A stretch of 64,000 nucleotides of DNA from Haloplasma contractile SSD-17B (GCF_000215935.2 NZ_AFNU02000014.1:1-64000), one strand, 5' to 3'. Shown: positions 3,677 through 60,930, counted from the first letter of the stretch. Program-made: numbers and translations. Notes: generated by a model from the letters alone, not told the origin.

Positions 3677-4096
3677 TTAATGTTCAGGAATTGAACGATG
3701 AGCTAAACCAATCGCAACCTCATTGAGATGGAGTAAACCAATGCTCATAAATATACAAACACTAAGATGTTCACCACTTCTAGCAACACCAATCTTCCCA
3801 CCAACATTAAGTCCAGTTGCTTTTGTTGCAACCTGCATAATTGCTTCCCTAGCTGCACCTGCTACTGCACCATCATATACATGACTTTCTTTAATTACAT
3901 CTGTTCTTCTAGAAGCAACAATTGAGCGTTCGATCACTTTTGGTATTGATTCTAATAAATTACCACCAATATCAATCGCTACTGCTTTGATTCCATTTTC
4001 TTTTTGTTCCGCTATTTTCTTCTGTTCTTCCTGTCTACTTTCTGTCATTGCTACTTCAATTGCAGCTTTTGCAATTGCTTTACTTGTTTCGTTCAT
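3677..4096 (-). CDS. HutP-family RNA-binding antiterminator-like protein
   Basis: About 140 residues. An N-terminal helix (residues 1-35) is followed by a HutP-like core: VIKESHVYDGAVAGAAREA, then GGKIGVARSGE, and a C-terminal NEVAIGLAHRSIP. B. subtilis HutP has the same order (ETHALYHAV, GxxxAIVRG-like strand, EAIGLGINHI) and is a histidine- and Mg-dependent RNA-binding antiterminator. Here the first metal-binding His of the HALYH motif is kept but the second is replaced, so ligand or metal use may differ. I prefer ATG 4094-4096 (GGTGAG just upstream, and the protein then begins MNETSKA); ATG 4108 is the alternative. A consensus promoter lies upstream. The next gene downstream is an ABC transporter behind a terminator, as in the hut operon. 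Confidence 0.75.
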   Translation of the reverse strand: MNETSKAIAKAAIEVAMTESRQEEQKKIAEQKENGIKAVAIDIGGNLLESIPKVIERSIVASRRTDVIKESHVYDGAVAGAAREAIMQVATKATGLNVGGKIGVARSGEHLSVCIFMSIGLLHLNEVAIGLAHRSIPEH

Positions 4097-4660: not shown

Positions 4661-6010
4661 CTATATTGTAGCGCTATTAAACGCCTCTTCATCAAATTCA
4701 CCAATTGATTTACCAACTGTTGTGGCAACAACCATATCTCCAGTTACGTTTACACTAGTTCTAAACATATCAACGATAAAGTCAACACCTACTACTAAAC
4801 CAATTGCTTCAACCGGTAATCCTGCAGCTGATAATGCAATTGTTGTAAAGATTGTTGCTCCCATTGGTACACCTGCAGTACCAAGTGATGCTAGAATTGA
4901 AACGAATACAATTATAATATATTGAGTAATACTTAGATCAATATTAAACGCATTTGCTGCAAAAATTGCTACTACTGCTGGGTAAATACCACCACAAGCA
5001 TCCATATTCATAACTGCTCCAATTGGAGCTACGAAGTTAGCAACTCGATCGCTTACTTTCAAACGCTCTTTAATTGTTTGAATTGTTACAGTTAATGTAC
5101 CTGCACTACTACGTGATGTGAACGCTAGTATTGATGCAGGTGAAGCTGCTTTGAAAAATTTTATAGGATTTAATTTATTGACTAATACGGTAAATCCAAA
5201 TCCATATGTTAAGGTTACATGTAATAAACTAGCGATTATGATCGCTAATACGAATAATCCTAATTCAGGAATTGCTTCTATACCACCTGCATTTGATAAC
5301 CAGAATGCTGATAATGCAAATACACCGTATGGAGTAAGTTTTAAGACAATTTTTGTAATTCGTATTACAACTGTATAGAATGATTGCATAAATTCTTTAA
5401 ATGCTTTCAGTTTCGAAGCATCACGACCTTGTTCAATTGAAGCTGCTACTGCAACAAATAAAGAAAATACTATAATTGGTACTAATTTCATTTCCGCAGC
5501 ATTTGCAATAGGATTACTTGGTATAAATCCTCTAAACTGTTTGAATAGTTCAGCAACTGTTGAACTTTTAGATGGTTCAGCCGCAGCTGTTAGGTCCATT
5601 CCAGATCCTAAATTCATAACTGATGCAACTAGTACACCTATTAAACTAGCTACAGAGGCAGTAATGAAGAATAATCCTAATGTTCTGAACCCAATTTTTT
5701 TAAGTAACTTTTGATCATTAATTTGTAAGAAACTGACAATAATACTTGTCGGAACTAATGGAATGATGATCATTTTTAATAAATCAATAAATCCATAACC
5801 AACAAAAACAAATAAGTATGATCGTAAGTTAGACAATGTTTCACCAGATCCAATCGTCTTATATGCTAAGAATCCGAATAACCCACCTGCAATCATAGCA
5901 ATAAATACTCGAACTGAGAAACTAATTCTAAACTTTGTTTTCAGTGTACGTAAAATAAATAATGAAACAACAAATAGTAAAGCCCATAACGTAAATAAAA
6001 TAATATTCAT
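4661..6010 (-). CDS. tcyP: Cation-coupled L-cystine/dicarboxylate symporter (TcyP-like)
   Basis: A 449-residue membrane carrier of the dicarboxylate/amino acid:cation symporter family. It keeps the serine-rich reentrant motif AFTSRSSAGT near residue 300, the TM7 segment ending CGGIYPAVVA and the TM8 segment FRTSVNVTGDMV. These variants (GIYPA rather than NMDGTALY, RTSLNV-type) resemble the B. subtilis cystine symporter TcyP more than glutamate carriers. GGGAGG precedes the ATG. The promoter shares its core and two operator boxes with the tcyABC-like operon at 13 kb, which supports cystine as substrate. It is a single-gene unit closed by a terminator. Confidence 0.82.
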   Translation of the reverse strand: MNIILFTLWALLFVVSLFILRTLKTKFRISFSVRVFIAMIAGGLFGFLAYKTIGSGETLSNLRSYLFVFVGYGFIDLLKMIIIPLVPTSIIVSFLQINDQKLLKKIGFRTLGLFFITASVASLIGVLVASVMNLGSGMDLTAAAEPSKSSTVAELFKQFRGFIPSNPIANAAEMKLVPIIVFSLFVAVAASIEQGRDASKLKAFKEFMQSFYTVVIRITKIVLKLTPYGVFALSAFWLSNAGGIEAIPELGLFVLAIIIASLLHVTLTYGFGFTVLVNKLNPIKFFKAASPASILAFTSRSSAGTLTVTIQTIKERLKVSDRVANFVAPIGAVMNMDACGGIYPAVVAIFAANAFNIDLSITQYIIIVFVSILASLGTAGVPMGATIFTTIALSAAGLPVEAIGLVVGVDFIVDMFRTSVNVTGDMVVATTVGKSIGEFDEEAFNSATI

Positions 6011-6057
6011 TTTAAATCCTCCCTTAATTGTTTGCTTTTTAAAATCCGTCTTTAAAA

Positions 6058-6072
6058 GTGATTTAAGTCACA
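6058..6072 (-). promoter_or_regulatory. Downstream operator box of tcyP-like gene
   Basis: Inverted repeat GTGA-N6-TCAC (minus-strand TGTGA-CTTAAA-TCAC), centred about 20 bases after the predicted transcription start. A counterpart with the same form and position lies in the tcyABC leader. Confidence 0.65.
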
Positions 6073-6091
6073 GTTTTTGACTACACTATCT

Positions 6092-6120
6092 ATTATACCT
6101 TAATTGTGACATAAGTCAAA
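6092..6120 (-). promoter_or_regulatory. tcyP-like promoter with overlapping upstream operator box
   Basis: Minus strand TTGACT (6114-6119), 16-base spacer and TATAAT (6092-6097). A TTTGA-N6-TCACA box (6105-6120) overlaps the -35 and spacer. The tcyABC promoter has the same spacer length and the same ATGTCACA core. Confidence 0.8.
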
Positions 6121-6189
6121 AAATACGATAAACTTTTTATTTACATATTTTTACAAAAATAAAAGTAGGGGCACTCATCGATGAAAAAT

Positions 6190-6218
6190 CAAAAAAGAAC
6201 TATCCCTAAGACAATTCT
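6190..6218 (-). terminator. Terminator of the histidine-type ABC operon
   Basis: Minus-strand 9-bp stem AGAATTGTC/GATAGTTCT with five-base loop and six T, about 65 bases after the ATPase stop. Confidence 0.75.
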
Positions 6219-6283
6219 TTCCCTTGATTCAGTTATACAATACTATAAGATTATCCTAGATGGAATCCTAAGACTCGTTATAT

Positions 6284-6994
6284 CTATAGATTAAAATATT
6301 CCTCAGGTGTTAACGTTTTTTCTATACTTCCGTCGCGCATCATTAGAATTCGGTTCGAAATCTTCGCAAATTCCATATCATGAGTAATGATTAATACACT
6401 TAACCCTTTCTTAACAAGTGATTTTAGAATATTAGCTACTTCATTACTTAATGCAGGATCGAGTGCTGAAGTCGGCTCGTCAAAACAAATAATCTTCGGT
6501 TCTAAAATTAAAGCTCTAGCAATTGCAACACGCTGTTTTTGTCCTCCCGATAATTCATAAGGAAAATTATCCTTCTTTTCCTCTAAACCAAGGCTTTTTA
6601 AAATTTGAATTGCCTTTTCTATAGCACTTTCTTTTTTCATTCCATATACATGTATAGGCGAAAGAATAATATTCTCTAGTACACTTTTATGCGGAAATAG
6701 ATTGAAGTGTTGAAATACAAGCCCAATATCTTTACGTATTTTTTTTAGTTCATCATTTTTTGCATGGACTGGTTCTGTCTCATCATTACCTTTTACAAGG
6801 TATCGATTCTTAATAACAATATCACCACTATCACAGCGTTCAAGTCCACTTATACAACGAAGTGTCGTTGTCTTTCCTGCACCTGAAGGTCCTAGTAGCG
6901 TGACGATTTCACCTTCGTTGATTTCAAACGAAACATTATTCAAAATCCGGTTTTGTTTAATTGTCTTTGATAAATTATTTACTTTTAGTACCAT
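6284..6994 (-). CDS. Polar amino-acid ABC transporter ATP-binding protein (histidine-type)
   Basis: A 236-residue ATPase of the polar amino-acid uptake family (HisP/GlnQ). Walker A GPSGAGKT is at residues 35-42, the Q-loop in LVFQHFNLFPH, the signature LSGGQKQR near 143 and Walker B IICFDEPTSALDP near 165, followed by the switch His in ITHDMEFA. GTAGGAGGA precedes the ATG, 11 bases after the permease stop. It is the last gene of a binding protein, permease, ATPase operon behind a T-box whose specifier and tRNA-end motif fit tRNA-His, so histidine is the likely substrate. Confidence 0.9.
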   Translation of the reverse strand: MVLKVNNLSKTIKQNRILNNVSFEINEGEIVTLLGPSGAGKTTTLRCISGLERCDSGDIVIKNRYLVKGNDETEPVHAKNDELKKIRKDIGLVFQHFNLFPHKSVLENIILSPIHVYGMKKESAIEKAIQILKSLGLEEKKDNFPYELSGGQKQRVAIARALILEPKIICFDEPTSALDPALSNEVANILKSLVKKGLSVLIITHDMEFAKISNRILMMRDGSIEKTLTPEEYFNL

Positions 6995-7005
6995 GCTACG
7001 TCCTC

Positions 7006-7722
7006 CTACTCATAGTATGCCAAACGCTTCTCAACGCGGTCAAATAATTTTGTGAAACCATAAACAAGTATCAAATACACTATGCCTACAAGCGCATAAG
7101 GAACTAAAGTCGCATCACGATTTGCAGCAATTTTAGCAGTTCTTAATAAGTCAGTGATAGCTAGTACATAAACAAGTGCAGTATCCTTAACTAAGGTAAT
7201 GACTTCATTTGCAATCGCAGGAAGTACACGCTTAATAACCTGTGGTAATACAACCAATTTAAACGTTTGTGCCTTACTTAATCCTAATACTTCTGCGCCC
7301 TCATATTGACCTTTATCAATAGAAGCAATTCCAGCTCTAAAAATTTCAGCAAAATATGCAGCATAATTTAATGAGAACGCAAACAATGCTGCAGTTAGTC
7401 GGTTAAATTTAATTCCAAGTTCGGGTAAACCAAAATAGACAAAAATAAGTTGTAAAAGAAGAGGAGTTCCTCTCATCACCCAAATATACAACTCGGTAAA
7501 CTTACTTAGCGGTTTAAACGTAGATAACCTACATAAAGCTACAATAATCCCTAATGGAATTGAAATCAATAGTGTAATAATGAAAATTATAAATGTTGTA
7601 TAAAGTCCGTCTAACGCCGCGGGGATAAACTTATTGATATAATGTAAAAGTTCATTAAACGAACTGTCTGCCTGTAAAGAAGACATAGTCTGATTATTTA
7701 AAATGTGTTGTATCATGTTCAT
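7006..7722 (-). CDS. Polar amino-acid ABC transporter permease (histidine-type)
   Basis: A 238-residue permease of the HisM/GlnP family. An N-terminal extension of about 35 residues precedes five hydrophobic segments. VMRGTPLLLQLIF and the cytoplasmic EAA loop (EIFRAGIASIDKGQYEGAEVLG) are clear. GGTGGG lies 3 bases before the ATG at 7722; an in-frame ATG at 7716 would give better spacing. It follows the binding-protein gene after 151 bases that contain a partial terminator hairpin and precedes the ATPase gene. A single permease gene implies a homodimeric channel. Confidence 0.9.
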   Translation of the reverse strand: MNMIQHILNNQTMSSLQADSSFNELLHYINKFIPAALDGLYTTFIIFIITLLISIPLGIIVALCRLSTFKPLSKFTELYIWVMRGTPLLLQLIFVYFGLPELGIKFNRLTAALFAFSLNYAAYFAEIFRAGIASIDKGQYEGAEVLGLSKAQTFKLVVLPQVIKRVLPAIANEVITLVKDTALVYVLAITDLLRTAKIAANRDATLVPYALVGIVYLILVYGFTKLFDRVEKRLAYYE

Positions 7723-7804
7723 GTTCCCACCAATCTTTGTAATATCAAAATATATAAATACATAATAGGTTTAGTATTAGCAAAAGAGACTGTTTTTAAA
7801 ATGA

Positions 7805-7842
7805 CAAAAGTTTTAGGAATCACAGACTTGTGACCCTAAAAC
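7805..7842 (-). terminator. Intra-operon hairpin after the binding-protein gene
   Basis: Inverted repeat GTTTTAGG...CCTAAAAC (7810-7817 with 7835-7842), with inner TCACA/TGTGA pairing and a short T run on the minus strand. Such partial terminators or 3'-end stabilisers often follow binding-protein genes and raise their dose relative to the permease and ATPase. Confidence 0.6.
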
Positions 7843-7873
7843 AAACATTGCCCTCTAATATAATCATTAACTA

Positions 7874-8677
7874 TTATTGTACAATATCTTCTCCAAACCA
7901 TTCATTTGAAATGGTAGCACTTGCTCCGTCTGCTTTCATACTTGCTAGTTCGTCATTGATGGCATCTAGAAGCGCATCATTCTCTTTTCGAACTCCAATT
8001 CCATACTCTTCTCTTCCAAAGTCATCAGTTAATACTGTATATAGACCATCTTCTTTTAGACTAATATAATAACGTGCAAGAATCTCATCAACTACAACAG
8101 CGTCAACACGTCCAAATTCTAATTCTCGTAATGCTTCATCATTTGTCCCGTATTGTAATGCTTCACCACCATCGAATGCTTGAACTACATCGCTCTCTTT
8201 ATTTACAGCATCTAATGAACTTGACGCCTCTTGGACAGCTACTTTTTTACCACTCAAATCAGCTTTTGAAGAAATTCCACTATCCGTTAATACAACAATT
8301 ACTTGTCTATTAGCTAAATATGGAGTCGAGAAGTCAACCTTTTCCTTACGTTCATCTGTAATTGTGTATCCATTCCAGATCAAGTCAATATTACCTGAGT
8401 TAAGTTCTGTCTCTTTCATTGACCAATCAATCGGTTGAAATCTTACTTCTAAATCTAATCGTTCAAATAATTCCTTTGCCATGTCTACATCAAATCCAAC
8501 AATTTCATTGTCTTCATCTCTAAACCCCATGGGTGCAAATGAATCATCTAGACCCATAACGATATAACCGCGATCCTGAATTTGCTCATAATTAGGAGCC
8601 TCATCACCTTGACACCCTACTAAAGTAAATACTACTGCTAAAATCATTAAACCTAATAATACCTTTGCCTTTTTCAT
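7874..8677 (-). CDS. Polar amino-acid ABC transporter substrate-binding lipoprotein (histidine-type)
   Basis: A 267-residue family 3 solute-binding protein. The signal peptide ends in lipobox LVGC (Cys at about residue 22). The typical core follows: YIVMGLDDSFAPMGFRD, EIVGFDVDMAKELFERL, LNSGNIDLIWNGYTITDER and STPYLANRQVIVV. Acidic and aromatic residues at the usual ligand-binding positions are present. GAGGAG precedes the ATG. The first gene of the operon, it is preceded by a long T-box leader with a CAC (His) specifier, so transcription should rise when uncharged tRNA-His accumulates. Histidine binding is therefore inferred from the regulator, not from the fold. Confidence 0.9.
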   Translation of the reverse strand: MKKAKVLLGLMILAVVFTLVGCQGDEAPNYEQIQDRGYIVMGLDDSFAPMGFRDEDNEIVGFDVDMAKELFERLDLEVRFQPIDWSMKETELNSGNIDLIWNGYTITDERKEKVDFSTPYLANRQVIVVLTDSGISSKADLSGKKVAVQEASSSLDAVNKESDVVQAFDGGEALQYGTNDEALRELEFGRVDAVVVDEILARYYISLKEDGLYTVLTDDFGREEYGIGVRKENDALLDAINDELASMKADGASATISNEWFGEDIVQ

Positions 8678-8731
8678 CTTTCATTCTCCTCTTATTATAA
8701 TTTTATATTCGTTACTTTTCAAAAAACAAAT

Positions 8732-8767
8732 AAAAAATCTCGTCCTAAGCTTACGCTAAAGGACGAG
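8732..8767 (-). terminator. T-box terminator hairpin
   Basis: Stem 8739-8746/8760-8767 on the minus strand followed by TTTTTT. It competes with the antiterminator that contains the T-box sequence. Confidence 0.88.
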
Positions 8768-8992
8768 AGAATCTCCCGTGTTCCCACCTTTTTTCATTAA
8801 TATCTCACAATATTAATCTTATCGAGTACCAATTGTATACTCTAGCACGATATCGGGTGCAAATCCGTAGCAGCCTACTACTTTATAGGGTTCGGTGCTA
8901 GGCTCTGAGATGTGTTCAGTAAAGCTTCTAAAGTCCTTTTCACCAACCAGGACCTCTCTGTAATAGAAATTCTATACTTACTAGTTCTCTTC
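8732..8992 (-). ncRNA. T-box leader, predicted histidine-specific
   Basis: The minus-strand leader of the histidine-type operon has the T-box layout. Stem I spans about 8992-8900, with AGAGA and the GGTCC/GGAC apical arm. The specifier loop reads GAA-CAC-A (CAC at 8912-8914, His). An antiterminator carries AGGTGGGAACACGG (8776-8789), followed by an 8-bp terminator CTCGTCCT/AGGACGAG and six T. The bulge reads TGGG, which pairs with a tRNA ending CCCA, that is discriminator C73, almost unique to tRNA-His in bacteria. Two independent signals thus point to histidine. Confidence 0.9.
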
Positions 8993-9123
8993 ATTGCCAA
9001 TATAATTTAAATGCTTTATTTAGATAAAGTAACTTTGATAGTTACTATAATAAAGCAAAATCAGATAAATGTCAACACTTTATTTCAATAAAGTTTATTT
9101 TTATTGTATATTATTTAAAAGCA

Positions 9124-9153
9124 CAAAAAGGTACCAGGATTACTCCTAGTACC
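9124..9153 (-). terminator. Terminator of nitronate monooxygenase-like gene
   Basis: Stem of about 10 bp (GGTACTAGGA with TCCTGGTACC) and five T on the minus strand, directly after the stop codon. Confidence 0.85.
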
Positions 9154-9165
9154 TAATGAATAATT

Positions 9166-10239
9166 TTATGCGTTTGATAGTTCCTTCTTTAAACTCTGCA
9201 TCATTTCTTTGACGGATACGATTTTGTCTACCTTGTATGCATTTGCACCACAAAACAGTAGTCCTTCATCAATATTACCCTTTACCGCATTGATCAAGGC
9301 TTCCGTTATACAGTATGGAATAGTAACGCGGTCACAGATTGATTCTCTTAAACATCCATAACATTTCTTTACCTTAACCTGCTCAGTTTTTAAGCGTTCA
9401 ACTAACTTGTTTAATATGGCTCTCCCAGGCATTCCAACAGGACTCTTAACAAGTTCTATTTCGTCTTTCGTACAAGATAAGTAAGAGTTTTTAAACGCAT
9501 CACTTGCATCGCATTCATGAGTTCCTATAAAACGTGTCGCCATTTGAACACCACTTGCTCCCGCTTTTAAGTAATCCGCTATATCGTTTCCATCAAAAAT
9601 ACCCCCAGCTGCAACTACCGGTATTTTTTTGTTATATTTATGTTCATATTTCTTTACCTCATCAACTACACCAATGACTATTTGCTTTAAATCAGTCGTT
9701 TCTGATGTTAGTTCATCTAAAGAATATCCTAAATGCCCACCTGCTTTAGGACCCTCTACCACAACTAGGTCAGGTATTCTATTCTCTTTACGATCCCATA
9801 CCTTTAAAATGGTTTTAATTGCTTTTACAGATGATACAATAGGTGCAATCTTTACTTTTGTTCCCTTAACAAGTTTAGGTAATGCTAGTGGGAGGCCTGC
9901 TCCAGATATAATCAGATCTATTTTTGAGTCAACCGCTGCTCTGACATAGTCTTTGTAATTTTCCATAGCAACCATAACATTCAGCCCAATAATCCCAGAC
10001 TTTGCGCGCTCCTTAGCAAGTTTGATATGCTTTTTAAGAGATCTTATATTTGCGTTAACTGGGTCTTTTGCAAAGTCATCTTCATCATAACCAATTTGAG
10101 CAGCTGATATTACACCTACTCCTCCTGAATTTGCTACAGCTGCTGCTAAATTTGAACGCGAAACACCAATTCCCATTCCACCCTGTATAATGGGCAACTC
10201 TGAGGTTAAGTTATCTATTTTTAATGGTTTTATTATCAT
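9166..10239 (-). CDS. Nitronate monooxygenase / 2-nitropropane dioxygenase family flavoprotein
   Basis: 357 residues, TIM-barrel FMN enzyme (PF03060). Visible are the N-terminal PIIQGGMGIGVS, GLNVMVAM, a central EGPKAGGHLGY, the FMN-phosphate loop VVAAGGIFDG and GASGVQMATRFI. The C-terminal third has a Cys-rich segment (KKCYGCLRESICD, IPYCI, LLFCGANAYKVD) found in the clostridial subgroup. Family members oxidise nitronates, while relatives (FabK) are enoyl-ACP reductases. The subgroup with this Cys-rich tail has no settled role, so the exact reaction is open. It is a monocistronic unit with AGGAG before the ATG and its own terminator. Confidence 0.8.
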   Translation of the reverse strand: MIIKPLKIDNLTSELPIIQGGMGIGVSRSNLAAAVANSGGVGVISAAQIGYDEDDFAKDPVNANIRSLKKHIKLAKERAKSGIIGLNVMVAMENYKDYVRAAVDSKIDLIISGAGLPLALPKLVKGTKVKIAPIVSSVKAIKTILKVWDRKENRIPDLVVVEGPKAGGHLGYSLDELTSETTDLKQIVIGVVDEVKKYEHKYNKKIPVVAAGGIFDGNDIADYLKAGASGVQMATRFIGTHECDASDAFKNSYLSCTKDEIELVKSPVGMPGRAILNKLVERLKTEQVKVKKCYGCLRESICDRVTIPYCITEALINAVKGNIDEGLLFCGANAYKVDKIVSVKEMMQSLKKELSNA

Positions 10240-10393
10240 TTATCTCACTCCTTCCTTTTCATTATATAGCATAAGGTGTAATTTGTAAATTGCTTTGAGA
10301 ATCAAAATATTATTTTATCAAAGTTTTTATGGAGTTTTCATTTACTTAACTAATAAATCATACTATTAAGAAATAAGTTAATTTACAATAAAC

Positions 10394-10424
10394 GAAAAAA
10401 ATGGTTGATTCAGTTGAACCAACC
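10394..10424 (-). terminator. Terminator of mscS-like gene
   Basis: Stem GGTTGGTTC/GAATCAACC with four-base loop and seven T on the minus strand, just after the stop codon. Confidence 0.85.
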
Positions 10425-10435
10425 ACTAATAATTA

Positions 10436-11251
10436 CTAACTATTTGAAACATGTACATCCATTTGTGGATAAGGAATATTAATATTATTTTGATCAAAAT
10501 CTAACTTAACACGTTCTTGAAGTTCATAGAAGATCGTCCAGTAATCTTCTCTTTTACACCAAACACGAACATAGAATATGATTGCATTGTCGCCATGTTC
10601 TCCTATGACGATTTTGGGTTCAGGCTCTTGTATTATTAAACTATGACTAGACACTATATTATTTAGAATATCTTTGACTAGCTTAATATCGTCGTCATAA
10701 CTAATTCCAAATTTAAAGTCTACTCTACGCGTCTTATTGATTGAGTAGTTAATTAAACTTGAATTTGATAACTCTTTATTTGGTATAATCACACGTTTAT
10801 TATCTGGAGTATCTAATGTTGTGTAAAAGATTTGTATTTCATTTACAGTACCAGAATGATCCTTCGTTTCAATATAATCGCCTACTTTGTAAGGCTTTAG
10901 AACTAGAATTAATAACCCACCTGCAAAGTTTGCTAAACTTCCTTGTAAAGCCAAACCGACTGCAAAACCGATTGACCCTATAATTGCTACAAATGATGTC
11001 ATTTCAGCACCAAGCATAGTTGCTATACTTATACCTAGTAATATTTTTAAGGAAAGACTAATTCCTGGAAGTAAAAAGGACCTTACAGAAGGATCAAGTT
11101 TTCTTCTTTCAAATCGCTTTCTAAGAAAGGATGTTAATCGCTTAATAATAATCAAACCAATTATTAATAGTAATAGTGCCTGCAATAATTTTACACTATA
11201 TGTCATGGCTAGATCATATAGTTGTTCTACATCGATAAAATCACCCATCAT
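10436..11251 (-). CDS. Small-conductance mechanosensitive channel, MscS family
   Basis: About 272 residues. Three membrane helices are followed by a cytoplasmic beta and alpha/beta cage. The pore helix TM3 reads FVAIIGSIGFAVGLALQG and continues to FAGGLLILVLKPYKVGDYIE, the family hallmark; VIIPNKELSNSSLINYS is the conserved beta domain. The channel opens under membrane tension to release solutes during osmotic downshock. AGGTGG sits just before tandem ATGs (11251 and 11248), so I choose these over an ATG at 11296, which lacks a ribosome site. It is a single-gene unit with its own terminator. Confidence 0.92.
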   Translation of the reverse strand: MMGDFIDVEQLYDLAMTYSVKLLQALLLLIIGLIIIKRLTSFLRKRFERRKLDPSVRSFLLPGISLSLKILLGISIATMLGAEMTSFVAIIGSIGFAVGLALQGSLANFAGGLLILVLKPYKVGDYIETKDHSGTVNEIQIFYTTLDTPDNKRVIIPNKELSNSSLINYSINKTRRVDFKFGISYDDDIKLVKDILNNIVSSHSLIIQEPEPKIVIGEHGDNAIIFYVRVWCKREDYWTIFYELQERVKLDFDQNNINIPYPQMDVHVSNS

Positions 11252-11387
11252 ACCACCTACATTTCTTATTTTATTTATATCGTAACATGTTATCAATTAT
11301 ATGTTTAATTATACGCTTATAGTTGTGATATTACATACTAAACCAAGGAAACTTAAAAAAGGTGTTAAAAATGACCATAGCGTTACT

Positions 11388-11603
11388 TTATTTTAAAATA
11401 CAGTAATCCATTAGAATATATAAGGTTCTTTCAAAGGAGTGTGACTGTGATATTCTGTCTTTCATTGAATCAATTGCTTGTTGGTAATCCGCTTCTCTAT
11501 TCAGTTCTTGACCCTTATTCACAAGCGCATTCGTACATAAATTTAAAATATAATCAAAGTCACCTTTGTTTTCACTAAGATGAATCACTGGTTTATCTAA
11601 CAT
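11388..11603 (-). CDS. Small protein of unknown function
   Basis: 71 residues, soluble, mildly acidic, with no signal peptide or membrane segment. Predicted mostly helical; the C-terminus SFERTLYILMDYCILK is amphipathic. A weak GGAG lies 10 bases before the ATG. It is divergent from the lipase-like gene; the intergenic region holds an 18-bp perfect palindrome. I do not recognise a family. The reading frame is AT-rich like its neighbours and could be real, but the evidence is limited to length, start context and isolation. Confidence 0.5.
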   Translation of the reverse strand: MLDKPVIHLSENKGDFDYILNLCTNALVNKGQELNREADYQQAIDSMKDRISQSHSFERTLYILMDYCILK

Positions 11604-11690
11604 ATCTCGATCACTCCATATATAGTTTATCTTCTATAGTATGAGTGATAATATCATTGATTATTTACTAGTTTTTTTAAATTCTCAATC

Positions 11691-11708
11691 GTGTATGTTA
11701 ACATACAC
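11691..11708. promoter_or_regulatory. 18-bp perfect palindrome, candidate operator
   Basis: GTGTATGTTAACATACAC is fully self-complementary and lies between the divergent small-protein and lipase-like genes. It ends next to the -35 region of a TATAAT promoter serving the plus-strand gene. The form suits a dimeric repressor; the regulator is unknown. Confidence 0.55.
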
Positions 11709-11816
11709 TACTTGTCCAAAAAACATCAATTATAATGTTTAATTAAAAAAAGCAAATTCTTTATTTCAATTCATCTCTATTTATTATAAAATGGTATTTA
11801 AAGGAGGGTCTTTTGT

Positions 11817-12743
11817 ATGAAAGAAAATCGAACGATTTCAGGGTACAATGGTTCAAAAATCAATTTTAACTTCTACGAATGTGAACATCCTAAAGGCTCA
11901 GTTATTATTGTTCACGGAATGTGTGAACATAAAAACAGGTACAATCATTACGCAGACTTCCTACGTAAATATGGGTATCATGTTTATACCTATGATCATC
12001 GAGGACACGGTGATTCAATTTGTGACAATGTTGAATTAGGCGATATAGGACGTCATGGGTTTAACAGTATGGTTTATGATTTAAAGATAATGAATGACTA
12101 TGTAAAACAAAAAGAGCCTCAATTACCAATTTTCATTTATGGACATAGTATGGGGTCATTCATTACTCAGCGTTATATGCAATTGCATGGTAATCTTATA
12201 GATGGAATTATTTTAAGTGGGAGTAATGGAAAAACGCCGACACCGATATTAGTTCTTGGTAAGATAATAAGTCGTTTACTGTTTATTTTTAAAGGCCGTA
12301 AATCAAAAGGTAAATTTTTAAATAAATTATCATTTGGATCATTTAATAAACGCTATAATGACTGCAAAACTGACTTTGACTGGTTAAGTCGAGATGATAG
12401 CGAAGTCAAGAAGTATATTGATGATGAAAAATGTGGTTATGTGTGCTCAAATGAGTACTATTATGAACTTTACAAAGGTATGCACGAACGTCAAAAAAGT
12501 AAACATATAAAACAGGTACCAAAAGATCTCCCGATTTTAATTATTTCAGGAGATATGGACCCGGTCGGCAACTATGGAAAGGGTGTTCAAAATCTTTATG
12601 GTCTCTACCAAAATCAAGTCGATCACCTTACAATAAAGCTTTATAACGATGCTAGACACGAGTTATTAAATGAAATCAATAAACAAGAAGTGATGAGTGA
12701 TACCCTATTATGGTTAAATACTCAGGCAAGTCCAAATAAATAA
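11817..12743 (+). CDS. Alpha/beta hydrolase, monoacylglycerol-lipase/lysophospholipase-like
   Basis: 308 residues, no signal peptide. The hydrolase-4 fold shows the oxyanion segment IVHGMCEH (31-38), YDHRGHGDS (59-67), nucleophile Ser111 in GHSMGS, a catalytic Asp in ISGDMDPVG near 246 and a His in DARHE near 282. Family members hydrolyse monoacylglycerols or lysophospholipids, so a role in lipid turnover is likely; the substrate is inferred. AAAGGAGGG lies upstream of the ATG. It is a single gene with its own terminator. A palindromic operator candidate lies about 110 bases upstream. Confidence 0.85.
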   Translation: MKENRTISGYNGSKINFNFYECEHPKGSVIIVHGMCEHKNRYNHYADFLRKYGYHVYTYDHRGHGDSICDNVELGDIGRHGFNSMVYDLKIMNDYVKQKEPQLPIFIYGHSMGSFITQRYMQLHGNLIDGIILSGSNGKTPTPILVLGKIISRLLFIFKGRKSKGKFLNKLSFGSFNKRYNDCKTDFDWLSRDDSEVKKYIDDEKCGYVCSNEYYYELYKGMHERQKSKHIKQVPKDLPILIISGDMDPVGNYGKGVQNLYGLYQNQVDHLTIKLYNDARHELLNEINKQEVMSDTLLWLNTQASPNK

Positions 12744-12752
12744 TTAATAATA

Positions 12753-12787
12753 ACCTGGTAAAGACTAAACTCTTTATCAGGTTTTTT
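12753..12787 (+). terminator. Terminator of hydrolase gene
   Basis: Stem CCTGGTAAAG/CTTTATCAGG, ten-base loop, then TTTTTT, just after the stop codon. Confidence 0.9.
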
Positions 12788-12949
12788 AATATAAATCCTA
12801 AAAAGAAACAGTAGTTATTACTTTATTAGTAATAATAGTAAGAAGTACCTTTTTATTGATAATCGTATAAAGAAACGTCTTGTATCAAAAAATAGATTTA
12901 ATGTGCTTAACGTATTGTATATTTTTACTTTTAAAAATTTAAAGTATTA

Positions 12950-12978
12950 TTTGACAAATGTCACATTTCTAGTATAAT
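12950..12978 (+). promoter_or_regulatory. tcyABC promoter with overlapping upstream operator box
   Basis: TTGACA (12951-12956), 16-base spacer and TATAAT (12973-12978). A TTTGA-N6-TCACA box (12950-12965) overlaps the -35 and spacer. Core and spacing match the tcyP-like promoter. The stretch 12788-12949 before it holds no gene. Confidence 0.88.
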
Positions 12979-12990
12979 AGGCTTTGTTGT

Positions 12991-13016
12991 ATTAATGTGA
13001 TTTATGTCACATTAAT
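12991..13016 (+). promoter_or_regulatory. 26-bp palindromic operator in tcyABC leader
   Basis: Perfect inverted repeat ATTAATGTGA-N6-TCACATTAAT, centred about 19 bases after the predicted transcription start. The core TGTGA-N6-TCACA is the classic CRP/FNR-type recognition form. A position downstream of the start suggests repression. The tcyP-like gene has the matching box. Confidence 0.8.
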
Positions 13017-13080: not shown

Positions 13081-13866
13081 GTGTTTAAATTTAAACGTTT
13101 AACGTTAGTTTTAGGAATACTTATATTTGGGGTTACATTATCAGCATGTAACAATAAAGAACAAGATCTATACGAAAAAATTATAGAAGAAGGTAAGATT
13201 GTAGTAGGTACAGAAGGTACATATGCTCCATTTACTTATCATGACGCTGAAACAGGAGATCTTACAGGTTTTGATGTTGAAATCGCACGTGAAGTTGCAG
13301 AACGTCTTGGTGTTGAAGTAGAGTTTTTAGAAACAAAGTGGGATGGATTACTTGCAGGTGTAAATACAGGACGATATGATATAGTGGCAAACCAAGTTTG
13401 GAAAAAACCTGCTCGCGAAGAAGCGTATACATTAACGGATCCATACATGCTAACAAATGCTGTATTAGTGGTACAAGAAGGGAACACAACGATTACATCC
13501 CTTGAGGATATAGCAGGACAAAAAGGTGCGCATTCCTTAACAAGTGCGTATGCTGATATGGCTCGTGAAAAAGGCGCTGAGATTGTAGGAGTTGATACAT
13601 TTACTGAAGCGGTACAAAACTTAATCAATGGGCATGTTGAGTACACAATCAATGATACCGCAACAGTTGCTTATTACTTAGCACAAAATCCAGATGCTAA
13701 TGTTAAGGCACTGAACTTAGAATTAGATCAATTTGAAGTTGTATTTGCATTACCAAAAGAAAATGCAAATACATTAGAAGAAAAAATTAATGCGATTTTA
13801 GAAGATATGCGTAACGATGGTACATATGATGCAATCTATCAAACATACTTTGAAGTAATTGAATAA
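13081..13866 (+). CDS. tcyA: Cystine-type amino-acid ABC transporter substrate-binding lipoprotein
   Basis: A 261-residue family 3 binding protein. Start is GTG with AGGAGG 8 bases upstream. The signal peptide ends in lipobox LSAC (Cys23). IVVGTEGTYAPFTYHD, LTGFDVEIAREVAERLGV, FLETKWDGLLAGVNTGRYD and VANQVWKKPAREEAY are very close to the cystine-binding TcyA/FliY subgroup. The order binding protein, permease, ATPase equals tcyABC. The promoter shares its operators with a TcyP-like cystine symporter in this window, which strengthens the substrate call. The protein acts on the outer face of the membrane, delivering ligand to TcyB. Confidence 0.85.
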   Translation: MFKFKRLTLVLGILIFGVTLSACNNKEQDLYEKIIEEGKIVVGTEGTYAPFTYHDAETGDLTGFDVEIAREVAERLGVEVEFLETKWDGLLAGVNTGRYDIVANQVWKKPAREEAYTLTDPYMLTNAVLVVQEGNTTITSLEDIAGQKGAHSLTSAYADMAREKGAEIVGVDTFTEAVQNLINGHVEYTINDTATVAYYLAQNPDANVKALNLELDQFEVVFALPKENANTLEEKINAILEDMRNDGTYDAIYQTYFEVIE

Positions 13867-13878
13867 CGGAGGTTCCCT

Positions 13879-14547
13879 ATGATTGAAGTCATAGAAACAT
13901 ATTTTGGGGAATTACTATTGAAATTAATCACTGTTAGCTTACCACTAACAGTGATAGCATTTACAATTGGATTAATTTTAGCTCTTTTTATTGCAATTAT
14001 GAGAATGTCATCAAATAAAGTTCTAAAGGCAATCAGCGGTTTTTATATCTCATTGGTACGAGGAACGCCTCTACTTGTCCAATTATTTATCATTTTTTAT
14101 GGACTTCCTACAATAGGTATTGTAATTGATCCCTATCCATCTGCAGTAATTGGGTTTTCTATTAATATAAGTGCTTACGCTGCTGAATCGATACGTGGTT
14201 CAATTTTATCAATTCCAAATGGGCAATGGGAAGCAGCCAAATCATTGGGGATGAACTTCCCTCAAACAATGAGACGTATAATCATTCCTCAAGCTACTCG
14301 AGTTGCAATTCCACCATTATCGAATACACTTATTAGTTTAGTTAAGGATACATCATTAGCGTCAATAGTATTAGTTGCAGAAATGTTTCGTAGGGCACAA
14401 GAAGTAGCTGCCGTTAGACCAGGTATCATATTACAAGTGTACTTACTTGTTGCATTACTTTATTGGCTGATAGTCATAGGACTTACCTCACTTCAAAATC
14501 GATATGAAAAATATCTAAATCGCTACATTAAGGGGGCGAGTTCATGA
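13879..14547 (+). CDS. tcyB: Cystine-type amino-acid ABC transporter permease
   Basis: 222 residues, five hydrophobic segments, of the polar amino-acid permease family. Hallmarks are SLVRGTPLLVQLFIIFYGLP and the EAA loop ESIRGSILSIPNGQWEAAKSLG, which docks on the ATPase. CGGAGG lies before the ATG, 12 bases after the tcyA stop. The 3' end overlaps the tcyC start in an ATGA arrangement, so the two are translationally coupled. A homodimer would form the channel. Confidence 0.9.
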   Translation: MIEVIETYFGELLLKLITVSLPLTVIAFTIGLILALFIAIMRMSSNKVLKAISGFYISLVRGTPLLVQLFIIFYGLPTIGIVIDPYPSAVIGFSINISAYAAESIRGSILSIPNGQWEAAKSLGMNFPQTMRRIIIPQATRVAIPPLSNTLISLVKDTSLASIVLVAEMFRRAQEVAAVRPGIILQVYLLVALLYWLIVIGLTSLQNRYEKYLNRYIKGASS

Positions 14548-15284
14548 TTAGAGTAAATCAAATCAAAAAAACATTTGACGACCTTCAAGTACTAAAAGGC
14601 ATGAGTCTAGACGTACAAGAAGGGGAAGTAATTGTTATGATTGGACCTAGTGGTTCCGGCAAGACAACGTTTTTACGTTCAATAAACGCACTTGAAATCC
14701 CTGAAGATGGAGCTGTGACTATAGGCGACATAAAAATAGACTATAGTCAAAAACCTAGTGAGAACCTATTAAGATCACTGCGCTCTCAAATCGGAATGGT
14801 ATTTCAAAATTTTAATTTATTCCCTCACCTAACTGTCTTAGAGAATGTTATGGAAGGGCTAGTTACCGTTCAACGGATCTCTAAACATAAAGCGAGAGAG
14901 ATTGCAGCAGATTTCCTAGAGAAGGTTGGACTCAAAGAAAAAATCAATGAGTTTCCTTCTGCACTCTCTGGGGGACAGCAGCAACGTGTAGCAATCGCAC
15001 GAGCGTTAGCGACTAATCCAAAAGTTATTTTATTTGATGAACCAACAAGTGCACTTGATGTTGAACTCGTATCTGAAGTACTAAAAGTTATGAAGAAACT
15101 AGCCAGTGAGGGAATGACTATGATTATTGTGACACATGAGATTAACTTTGCTAAGGAAGTTGCCGATAAGATTGTCTTTATAGACAATGGTCATATACTT
15201 GATATCTTAAAACCAGATGAATTAAACAATAAATCGAACTCTGAAAGACTTCAAAAGTTTCTAAATTTAATAGAAAATAAATAA
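14544..15284 (+). CDS. tcyC: Cystine-type amino-acid ABC transporter ATP-binding protein
   Basis: A 246-residue ATPase. Walker A GPSGSGKT is at 34-41, the Q-loop in MVFQNFNLFPHLTV, the signature LSGGQQQRVA near 150, Walker B VILFDEPTSALD near 170 and the switch His in VTHEINFA. It overlaps tcyB by four bases. Last gene of the operon, closed by a strong terminator. The paralogous histidine-type ATPase at 6.3-7.0 kb is of the same family but clearly distinct in sequence. Confidence 0.9.
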   Translation: MIRVNQIKKTFDDLQVLKGMSLDVQEGEVIVMIGPSGSGKTTFLRSINALEIPEDGAVTIGDIKIDYSQKPSENLLRSLRSQIGMVFQNFNLFPHLTVLENVMEGLVTVQRISKHKAREIAADFLEKVGLKEKINEFPSALSGGQQQRVAIARALATNPKVILFDEPTSALDVELVSEVLKVMKKLASEGMTMIIVTHEINFAKEVADKIVFIDNGHILDILKPDELNNKSNSERLQKFLNLIENK

Positions 15285-15430: not shown

Positions 15431-16426
15431 TTAAATAAAGGGGATTTCTTTAAGACACATCATACATCTACCATCATGAATTCTAGTGTTGATGGCTTTG
15501 CTGTTCCGATTTACAATCTGTTGCCCGCAGTGATGACAGTACGAATTAAGATCAATTCCTCCTACATTCCCTATATAAACATAGTTTAGATACTCTAATG
15601 CTCGTTCTTTTCCTTTAAGCATCTTATCTATATCTGTAGGATCTTCACACATTTTATAATTTGGGTAATAGCGTGTTAGATGAAGCGGAATGTTAGGATC
15701 AACGGATGCAATAAACTCGGCTAGTTCAGCAACTTCCTCTTCTGAATCATTTTCTCCTGTTACCATTAAAGTTGTAATCTCAACATGCGTTTGTTCAGCT
15801 AGAAGTCGTATTGTATTTAGAACGGGTTCTAATTTTGCACCACATATTTTACGGTAGTACGAACTTGTGTATGCCTTCAGGTCAATATTTATAGCGTCAA
15901 CATAAGGGAGTAATTCCGTTAGTGGTTCTTCATTAATATAACCATTTGAAACAATGACAATTGACAAGTCTTTATATGTTTCTTTCATATATTTTGCTGT
16001 ATCTAATATATATTCATACCACATAAAGGGCTCATTATAAGTGAACGCAATACCGACATTATGATTTTCTTTATCTGCTTGATCGAGTAAATGCTTTATG
16101 TCGTGAATCTTTAAATCGTTTGTTTTGTGTCGGTGTTGAGAAATGGTATAGTTTTGACAAAAGCTACACGTCATATTACAACCAAACGTTCCTAAAGAGA
16201 TTATGGAGTGACCTGGCTTATAATGAAAGAGCGGTTTTTTCTCAATCGGATCGAGTGCGATTGAAGTGACTTGTTCATAATTTATAGCATATAAATGGTT
16301 GTTTTCATTCTTTCGCGTTTTACAAAGCCCATATTTCCCCTCACTTATCAAACAATTTTGAGGGCATAATTGACATCTAATATGCATACCTTCATGATGC
16401 CAGTACATTGCACTTTTTTTTGACAT
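15431..16426 (-). CDS. AmmeMemoRadiSam system radical SAM enzyme
   Basis: 331 residues. An N-terminal Cys cluster (C18, C21, C25, C35) precedes the radical SAM site CNMTCSFC (C83, C87, C90), which binds the [4Fe-4S] cluster that cleaves SAM. TLMVTGEND and LHLTRYYPNYK belong to the AmrS family. The C-terminus has a zinc-ribbon-like pair, C297/C300 and C321/C324. The ATG follows directly on the stop of the Memo-AMMECR1 gene, whose last codons contain its ribosome site, so the two products are coupled. The three-part system is widespread in archaea and anaerobes, but its substrate is not established to my knowledge. Confidence 0.9.
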   Translation of the reverse strand: MSKKSAMYWHHEGMHIRCQLCPQNCLISEGKYGLCKTRKNENNHLYAINYEQVTSIALDPIEKKPLFHYKPGHSIISLGTFGCNMTCSFCQNYTISQHRHKTNDLKIHDIKHLLDQADKENHNVGIAFTYNEPFMWYEYILDTAKYMKETYKDLSIVIVSNGYINEEPLTELLPYVDAINIDLKAYTSSYYRKICGAKLEPVLNTIRLLAEQTHVEITTLMVTGENDSEEEVAELAEFIASVDPNIPLHLTRYYPNYKMCEDPTDIDKMLKGKERALEYLNYVYIGNVGGIDLNSYCHHCGQQIVNRNSKAINTRIHDGRCMMCLKEIPFI

Positions 16427-17842
16427 CTATAGTTCTCCTTCTATATGACGCACGACTTCAAACTTTTCAATATTATAGTTACTGTCTTTATCAATCCCTG
16501 CCTTTTGGCACACGATTTCTAACTGCTGTTCTACTGAATTAACCCCTTCTAAATCAGGTAATAACACGCCACCATTTCCTTCATGGCTAACGATTACACC
16601 ATATTGTTTAGGGTTTAATTCATCTCTAGACGCAGGCACTGGTGCCATAATGACATCAACAGATACATCAAGATCAAGTAATTCATATTCTTCAACCTGA
16701 TTAAAACGTGGGTCTTTAACAGCTGCCTCTACAGCATTCCTAATGATTTCTTCTGCAACATTATTCATCGTTGGTAGAATTGTCCCTATACACCCTCGTA
16801 ATTGACCCGCTTTTTTAAGGGATACAAAAACACCATTTTTATTATTTACCAATTCTTCCTTAAGATCGTTTGGCACTTCCATCAATTGTTTATGTTTATA
16901 AAAATAATGCAAGCTTTCTCTGGCTAGTTTCACGTACTCATCCGAGTGTTCTAGTTTATCCCTAAATTGTTCTTTTTTTTGTTCCTTAATTCGATTCAGG
17001 TAATCAATATCAATATCACCACGGTTAAACCGCATCACTGCATACCCTACTCCAAACGTTCCTTCATAAGACAATAAATCACCGGTTATACTTTTTCCTG
17101 CCATTGTTCCAAGCATTATATAGATAGAACGTAAGCCGCACTCACCAGCCGCTTCTATCATATTAGCATTCATATCAAATATTGCCTCTACATCTCCCTC
17201 TTGTAAATGCTTTGTGATCGTCTGATCGAATTCTTTTCCAGAAGGAGAATACGAATACGCTCCACCCTCTTCTAGCAATCGATGTGACAAGTCACCACTA
17301 GCAATAATCACTGATTTTCTACCTAACCGCTTTATAGCATCCTGTATAACCATACCAAACTCATACAATTCTGTTTCTGATAAAAAACCATATGTAATAT
17401 GAACGAGTTTAAAATTCTTATATTTTTCATTAATAAAATATAAGGGAACGGTTGATCCATGGTCTAGATTAAAATCTGTATTAAATTGTTTTAATACATG
17501 ATCATTCACACCAATTGTTTGTATGCCTCTTATCTTAGAGTCGTTTAGTATTACCTCAACTAACTCCTGATCAATTGATTGTTCAAAAGATATTGATTTA
17601 GCACCGAATTGACTTAGGTCTCCTTTTATTGACTTAGCATCTGATATTGCAATTGCGTCACTAAATACTGGTCCATGCGGAGTAATTACTACAATCGTTT
17701 CAACATTCTTTTCCTTTATTTCATCCGCTATTAACTCACACGCTTGTTTCGTTCCATTAATTTTAGTTTCTAAAGACTTACCGATTTCCGGAATTACAAT
17801 TGGAGGGTGTGGCATTAAATAGTACCCTACTACTGTGTTCAT
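16427..17842 (-). CDS. AmmeMemoRadiSam fusion: Memo-like domain plus AMMECR1 domain
   Basis: 471 residues, two domains. Residues 1-270 form a Memo/LigB-like fold (MPHPPIVIPEIGK at the start, VVITPHGP, SGDLSHRL, GECGLRSIYIMLG) with His and Asp residues that could bind a metal. Residues 295-465 form an AMMECR1 domain with its signature LRGCIGTI near 355, followed by AVKDPRF and VSHEGNGGVLLPDLEGV. In many genomes these are separate proteins A and B; here they are fused. AAGGTGAT precedes the ATG. The gene directly precedes the radical SAM partner, with no gap. Biochemical role unknown. Confidence 0.9.
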   Translation of the reverse strand: MNTVVGYYLMPHPPIVIPEIGKSLETKINGTKQACELIADEIKEKNVETIVVITPHGPVFSDAIAISDAKSIKGDLSQFGAKSISFEQSIDQELVEVILNDSKIRGIQTIGVNDHVLKQFNTDFNLDHGSTVPLYFINEKYKNFKLVHITYGFLSETELYEFGMVIQDAIKRLGRKSVIIASGDLSHRLLEEGGAYSYSPSGKEFDQTITKHLQEGDVEAIFDMNANMIEAAGECGLRSIYIMLGTMAGKSITGDLLSYEGTFGVGYAVMRFNRGDIDIDYLNRIKEQKKEQFRDKLEHSDEYVKLARESLHYFYKHKQLMEVPNDLKEELVNNKNGVFVSLKKAGQLRGCIGTILPTMNNVAEEIIRNAVEAAVKDPRFNQVEEYELLDLDVSVDVIMAPVPASRDELNPKQYGVIVSHEGNGGVLLPDLEGVNSVEQQLEIVCQKAGIDKDSNYNIEKFEVVRHIEGEL

Positions 17843-58059: not shown

Positions 58060-58206
58060 AATCTATGTCAAGGAGTATATTCACAAATATATTCAATACG
58101 AAATAATCCCCTTCTTTATTATTAATAATTATAGAAAGGGCTAAAAAGAATATAGGTATGCAAAGAATCACTGATTATATTAAATCAGGTTAAATGCACG
58201 TGAATA

Positions 58207-58275
58207 ACTCGTAGTCCCGAAATTTACGGCTTCGGGCTAGATACTTTCGGACCATATCACCGAGGATATACGAGT
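58207..58275 (-). ncRNA. Guanine riboswitch aptamer upstream of the nucleoside ABC operon
   Basis: Purine aptamer on the minus strand: P1 ACTCGTA/TACGAGT; P2 and P3 loops with GATATGG and CCGTAAA-type core; GTATCTA joining region. The diagnostic base in GACTACG (position 74 by xpt numbering) is C, so the ligand should be guanine or hypoxanthine rather than adenine. It lies after the guaA stop and before the BMP lipoprotein gene, so it controls nucleoside import. Confidence 0.92.
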
Positions 58276-58374
58276 GTAATCAATTTCGACTACTATTTAA
58301 TTTTACATGATTATACTTATAATTCAATACTAACCGGTATGAAAGTGTTATTATATTAAATTCTTTTTAAAAAA

Positions 58375-60565: not shown

Positions 60566-60665
60566 CTACTAATCCCATCACGAAAAGAAGAATGAGAAAA
60601 CTATTAAAAACACAGTAAAAAACCATGATAAACACAAACAATATAAATCGGTTTGTACACTGCAT

Positions 60666-60732
60666 TTCGTAGTCCCGAAATTTACGGTTTCAGGGTAGAG
60701 ACTTTCGGACCATATTTCCGATATTATACGAA
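60666..60732 (-). ncRNA. Guanine riboswitch aptamer of the xpt-guaA operon
   Basis: Same purine aptamer core as at 58.2 kb: P1 TTCGTA/TACGAA, ATATGG, GTCTCTACC joining segment and CCGTAAA. The diagnostic base in GACTACG is C, giving guanine or hypoxanthine specificity. It represses xpt-guaA when guanine is plentiful. Confidence 0.93.
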
Positions 60733-60930
60733 TACACTTATATTTTATCAAATTTTTTTTAGTAATCAAGATGTAAATGCTATCTTTTATAATTTTGAAT
60801 GCAATTGAATTAAAATAGTTCATGAAAAATGGTAAACTAATAACGATAAATAAATAGATATGAATTTATAATAATTTTCTCTACGATATAAACTTAGCAT
60901 AATTGGATTGTATATAAAGGAGGTATACCT

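Follow-up and report, generated by a model that had tools for sequence, protein, structure and literature searches.

Cysteine uptake in Firmicutes is usually described as being under the control of CymR, LysR-type regulators or T-boxes. In a stretch of 64,000 nucleotides from Haloplasma contractile SSD-17B (NZ_AFNU02000014.1:1-64000; referred to as the window), two promoters preceding putative cystine transporter genes, tcyP-like on the minus strand and tcyABC-like on the plus strand, carry the same pair of boxes of the form TGTGA-N6-TCACA, a box type that is already known, as is the CRP/FNR protein family to which it belongs. This raises the question of which regulator reads these boxes and to what effect. 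We infer binding, repression, regulator and signal from the sequence, and hold with about even confidence that a cysteine-supply regulon (tcyP, tcyABC, luxS-mcc) is repressed by a cluster-type CRP/FNR homodimer with an Arg-Glu recognition helix, most likely the orphan protein called B below.

Paired boxes at the tcyP-like and tcyABC-like promoters

The tcyP core promoter (6092..6119, minus strand) consists of a -35 hexamer TTGACT (6119-6114), a 16-bp spacer and a -10 hexamer TATAAT (6097-6092), and the tcyABC core promoter (12951..12978, plus strand) of TTGACA (12951-12956), again a 16-bp spacer and TATAAT (12973-12978). When transcription start sites are inferred from the -10 positions, box B1 (TTTGACTTATGTCACA; 6105..6120, minus strand) and box B3 (TTTGACAAATGTCACA; 12950..12965, plus strand) lie over the respective -35 elements with their centres at about -27.5, in both cases 15 bp 5' of the start of the -10 hexamer. 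A second box follows each start, centred at about +20 for B2 of tcyP (TGTGACTTAAATCACT; 6057..6072, minus strand) and at about +19.5 for B4 of tcyABC (TGTGATTTATGTCACA; 12996..13011, plus strand). The centre-to-centre distances amount to 48 bp (tcyP) and 46 bp (tcyABC), and the two boxes per promoter with matching geometry that had been described in the original prediction are therefore confirmed. The 16-bp form TGTGA-N6-TCACA with its two-fold symmetry is matched exactly by one of the four window boxes and with a single mismatch by the other three, in agreement with the CRP/FNR-type operator form. Box B4 is situated within a 26-mer (ATTAATGTGATTTATGTCACATTAAT) that had been taken for a perfect palindrome; it proved to be imperfect, with perfect 10-bp arms, an asymmetric central TTTATG and symmetry at 22 of its 26 positions. 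As read by eye, the two promoters are dissimilar outside the boxes and the -10, which makes a recent duplication unlikely.

Cystine is the likely substrate of both transporters, as judged from the relationships of the encoded proteins. The tcyP-like gene (4661..6010, minus strand) encodes a symporter of 449 amino acids of the SDF / Na+:dicarboxylate family (Pfam PF00375, E 6e-106) and is 36-40% identical to its closest tcyP-like counterparts in relatives. For the tcyA-like substrate-binding protein (13081..13866, plus strand, GTG start), the best PDB relative is 2yln (E 5e-49), deposited as an amino-acid-binding protein, and this closest solved relative we take to be a cystine-binding protein; the best NCBIfam match is PRK11260 (cystine-binding), under its cut-off. 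The tcyB-like permease (13879..14547, plus strand) matches the cystine permease PRK15100 with 236 bits versus a cut-off of 300 and the tcyC-like ATPase (14544..15284, plus strand) the TcyN family with 310 bits versus 406, so that the best matches of the tcyABC proteins are cystine families, yet under the curated cut-offs.

A fifth box at the luxS-mcc operon

The genome (3.4 Mb) was examined by pattern searches plus selected stretches. In its loose form, TGTGA-N6-TCACA is not enriched in the 64-kb window, and genome-wide its 80 matches, compared to 70 for the reversed control, are barely above background and uninformative. For a twin-box pattern (TTGACNNNNGTCACA, 25-36 bp, TGTGANNNNNNTCA), which was composed after the sites had been seen, 0.0004 occurrences are expected in this genome; two were found, exactly at the tcyP and tcyABC promoters, and none in the 394 other genomes of the class (395 genomes in all). 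As this pattern derives from the sites themselves, the strict single-box pattern TGAYWWAWGTCACA, which fits all four window boxes, is the better test. It occurs at five exact places in the genome, which are the four window boxes and one further site in the luxS-mcc promoter, where the box (one mismatch to TGTGA-N6-TCACA) covers the -10/start of an operon for a methyltransferase, LuxS, MccB and a CysK/MccA-type enzyme, LuxS and MccB exceeding their NCBIfam cut-offs. This is a methionine-to-cysteine operon, and an operon of this type is under CymR control in B. subtilis. The probability that a random match falls in a sulfur-gene promoter is about 0.0004-0.001, and the fifth match, on the same pathway as cystine uptake, is independent support.

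The one-mismatch box matches of the genome are mostly intragenic, and the box is absent from its three other amino-acid ABC operons. An occurrence before many unrelated genes, which the original prediction would have taken as a refutation, was not encountered. One-mismatch boxes are located 5' of spx, of an nfu operon, of a DUF438-hemerythrin gene and of an HMA/thioredoxin-like cluster. At hcp, ric, DUF438-hemerythrin and nfu, the box centre lies 29 bp ahead of a -10-like hexamer (TACAAT for hcp, read and counted by eye), i.e., at -41.5, which is the classic position of an activator.

Two of these loci have features of their own. The box in the spx promoter (L231 1773-2300, contig C10) is TGTAATTTATGTCACA, and the encoded Spx carries a cysteine-bearing C-terminal extension. 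The nfu operon (L185 4573-8085, contig C5), with its box at -41.5, encodes a NifU-domain protein, a DUF1858 plus solute-binding protein for which no membrane partner is evident, a CobW-like GTPase and an ABC ATPase.

Candidate regulators and competing explanations

No Rrf2-family (CymR) protein exceeded the Pfam cut-off in this genome and seven family members (8 genomes), and the same search exceeded it in 12 of 14 control genomes. CymR moreover recognises a different DNA site. Four CRP/FNR proteins are encoded in the genome: A beside ric, C beside hcp, D beside an SsuABC-like transporter, and B without a telling neighbour. The recognition helix of A, B and C reads R-E-T-[V/L]-S-R (Arg-Glu) and that of D contains Arg-Pro, so that proteins with the Arg-Glu helix that matches the box are available (A, B, C). 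According to a published comparison, the box is determined by residues 180 and 181 of the helix: TGTGA is paired with Arg-Glu, and GTAAC-N4-GTTAC with Pro at 181 (PMC1274295). In a B. cereus paper, TGTGANNNNNNTCACA is given as FNR consensus (PMC8151001). This code holds in the present genome because D, with its Arg-Pro, has TGTAACATATGTTACA in its own promoter (L198 ~3978-3993, contig C16), between D and the divergent SsuABC-like transporter; near-identical boxes beside the D orthologs of G006 and G007 look like part of a conserved Crp/Fnr-transporter pair. The GA that accompanies Arg-Glu is retained in each of the ten half-sites that make up the five sulfur boxes. The proposal of a single dimeric CRP/FNR-type regulator for genes of one substrate is thus supported by the site at a cysteine-forming operon, the absence of Rrf2, the proteins with matching helices and the -41.5 boxes elsewhere.

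Half-sites help to distinguish among A, B and C. The boxes of hcp and ric, which adjoin the Crp/Fnr genes C and A, are of the GAT..ATC type (0 of 10 half-sites GAC), and relatives retain GAT-type boxes there; the cysteine boxes are of the GAC..GTC type (8 of 10 half-sites GAC). This difference points away from A and C, and B remains by elimination, a weak step in view of the small box sets and the identical contact residues of A and B. Protein B, encoded at 273626-274345 of contig C4 (minus strand), is an orphan FNR-like protein with no relative of more than 29% identity among 295 genomes searched. It has the CRP/FNR fold and a helix-turn-helix, FNR-type regulators head its PDB matches (E 8e-19), and it scores 87 bits against the NCBIfam Fnr model, under the cut-off of 228. 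It has cysteines at positions 7, 10, 15 and 110. The last of these is aligned to the central cysteine of FNR, and the N-terminal three form a C-X2-C-X4-C arrangement outside the FNR alignment.

Several points weigh against repression by protein B. The half-site difference, with p 0.0007 (0.0015 without the two half-sites that form the -35), comes from a comparison of few boxes that were partly picked by eye, and A and B do not differ in the TRETVSR stretch of their helices, so that known contacts do not explain the box preference. The presumed repression is read solely from the position of the boxes. The original prediction had proposed to look for an adjacent regulator gene; none adjoins the boxes. 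A lack of the boxes in relatives, which the same prediction would have counted against itself, was observed in part: besides the absence of the twin pattern from the class, the tcyP-like promoters of relatives were not found to contain the same boxes, that of family member G005 has related half-sites at a different spacing, and the search for a close relative sharing these promoters gave none, which leaves the sites without a phylogenetic footprint.

The G005 promoter (L017) has GTGACCTTGTCAC and TTGTGACTTTCACAA 5' of the tcyP-like gene, just ahead of the ribosome-binding site. Two other candidates from the comparison of genomes were discarded. The perfect palindrome TGTGACNWWNGTCACA is present in two of the 395 genomes, in both cases within predicted reading frames and with GC-containing centres, for which reasons these sites were judged to be due to chance, and a near-perfect box common to G001 and G004 belongs to a conserved stretch resembling a small RNA near ffh.

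Another explanation retains regulon and repression and makes the ric-linked protein A the regulator, which would activate from -41.5 at ric, DUF438-hemerythrin and nfu, repress at the cysteine genes, and so tie cysteine supply to the response to iron-sulfur (Fe-S) or nitric oxide (NO) damage. We regard it as possible, though doubtful. Protein A has the recognition helix TRETVSR in common with B and FNR-like cysteines at 6, 9, 14 and 112, it is conserved adjoining ric, and the boxes that nfu and DUF438 have at -41.5 share the GAC type with the cysteine boxes. However, A orthologs are accompanied by GAT-type boxes (at ric), and A is conserved in G005, whose tcyP-like promoter is without the boxes.

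Slightly less probable is that another family (MarR, TetR, LysR or similar) reads TGTGAC-N4-GTCACA. Cysteine regulators of Firmicutes are diverse, comprising CymR (Rrf2) and the LysR types CmbR, CysR and YtlI (PMC2940859), and the regulator families of this genome were surveyed non-exhaustively, but a CRP/FNR protein is favoured by the spacing, which is exactly that of CRP/FNR sites, by boxes of this type at -41.5 of redox genes that adjoin CRP/FNR genes, and by the agreement of helix and box within this genome.

Rex, the main rival, appears unlikely. In this case the operators would belong to one of two Rex proteins and cystine uptake would be repressed at high NAD+/NADH. Two Rex proteins are encoded and could in principle bind such boxes, a further point to the disadvantage of protein B; Rex is a repressor family whose sites have a similar length, TGTGA..TCACA arms and likewise repressor positions, as do the boxes described here. 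The site of S. aureus Rex is TTGTGAAW4TTCACAA, in which changes at position 7 are tolerated (PMC2883068). In contrast, the boxes do not have the form TTGTGAA-W4-TTCACAA, since the sixth half-site base, A in Rex sites, is C or sometimes T in all five sulfur boxes. The canonical Rex form (TGTGAATTAATTCACA) occurs separately in the genome, 5' of a MaoC-like gene adjoining an acyl-CoA dehydrogenase gene, and the two site types therefore look distinct. Also, GAC-type boxes are found at -41.5 (nfu, DUF438), an activator position and not one of Rex, and it is this, together with the sixth base, that makes Rex less likely. The two Rex paralogs (L301, L302) are encoded in an operon with a ferredoxin-hydrogenase-like gene and beside an ABC-F gene, respectively.

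A role of the downstream boxes at the RNA level, where 5' hairpins would stabilise or attenuate the messages, is very improbable, because of the two leaders only that of tcyABC folds, with a strong 15-bp hairpin spanning B4 (z -4.4), but that of tcyP has no comparable structure (z -0.4), B1 and B3 lie upstream of the start, and neither leader matches an Rfam leader.

Possible mechanism and relation to known systems

If protein B is the regulator, the four boxes would be operators of a small regulon comprising tcyP, tcyABC and methyltransferase-luxS-mccB-mccA, occupied by a CRP/FNR-family homodimer with the Arg-Glu helix of the TGTGA-N6-TCACA class. At the transporters one dimer may be bound over the -35 and a second at about +20, and at the mcc operon a single dimer may cover the -10/start. 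The bound protein would repress by steric exclusion of RNA polymerase and/or as a roadblock, as suggested by the location of the boxes (-35, +20, start), in each case a repressor position. The original prediction had offered looping or a roadblock at both promoters; the roadblock is retained as an inference from these positions, and looping was set aside, as 46-48 bp correspond to about 4.5 helical turns and place the boxes on opposite faces, which does not favour a loop between dimers on one face. Protein B probably holds a labile Fe-S cluster on its four cysteines. With cysteines at FNR-like positions in both A and B, such a cluster and control by oxygen (O2), NO or cluster supply are plausible; cluster loss (O2, NO, poor cluster supply) would free the operators and increase cystine import and methionine-to-cysteine conversion. 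Judged from the CRP/FNR family, the signal may be redox or Fe-S status no less than cysteine itself. More tentatively, and with doubts prevailing, an FNR-like Fe-S protein might have replaced CymR as master repressor, with the cluster state, itself dependent on cysteine sulfur, reporting cysteine/Fe-S sufficiency and setting cystine import and methionine-to-cysteine conversion through the paired -27.5/+20 operators.

The system resembles Bacillus Fnr (site TGTGANNNNNNTCACA) and E. coli FNR/CRP in box sequence and spacing, in the Arg-Glu helix, in four cysteines at FNR-like positions (A, B) and in the -41.5 boxes (hcp, ric, nfu, hemerythrin), but differs in that the cysteine boxes occupy repressor positions (-27.5, +20, start) and are doubled at the transporters. 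It shares the recognition code with HcpR/HcpR2, FNR-like hcp regulators (PMC1274295) whose hcp-linked representative in this genome is C (box at -41.5), whereas the targets of HcpR/HcpR2 are nitrosative-stress genes and not cysteine genes. The CymR regulon of B. subtilis and S. aureus overlaps in its targets, cystine transporters and the mccA-mccB operon; however, CymR is an Rrf2 protein, for which no candidate exceeds the cut-off here, and works with CysK (PMC2940859). In the part of the open literature that was covered, no description of CRP/FNR control of cystine uptake through paired operators was found. In a lineage without detectable Rrf2, an FNR-type regulator seems to have taken over cystine import and methionine-to-cysteine conversion, which, if true, would represent regulator replacement and connect redox/Fe-S status directly to cysteine supply.

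A third amino-acid ABC transporter (6284-8677), situated between the cystine loci, is preceded by a T-box leader (119 bits; 8756-9003, minus strand), and neighbouring transporters therefore use different modes of control. Elsewhere in the window, two purine riboswitches (58192-58293 and 60650-60751, minus strand) flank a guaA-like region, and a sequence reading of 15431-17842 (minus strand) indicates a fused MEMO-AMMECR1-like protein adjoining a radical SAM protein.

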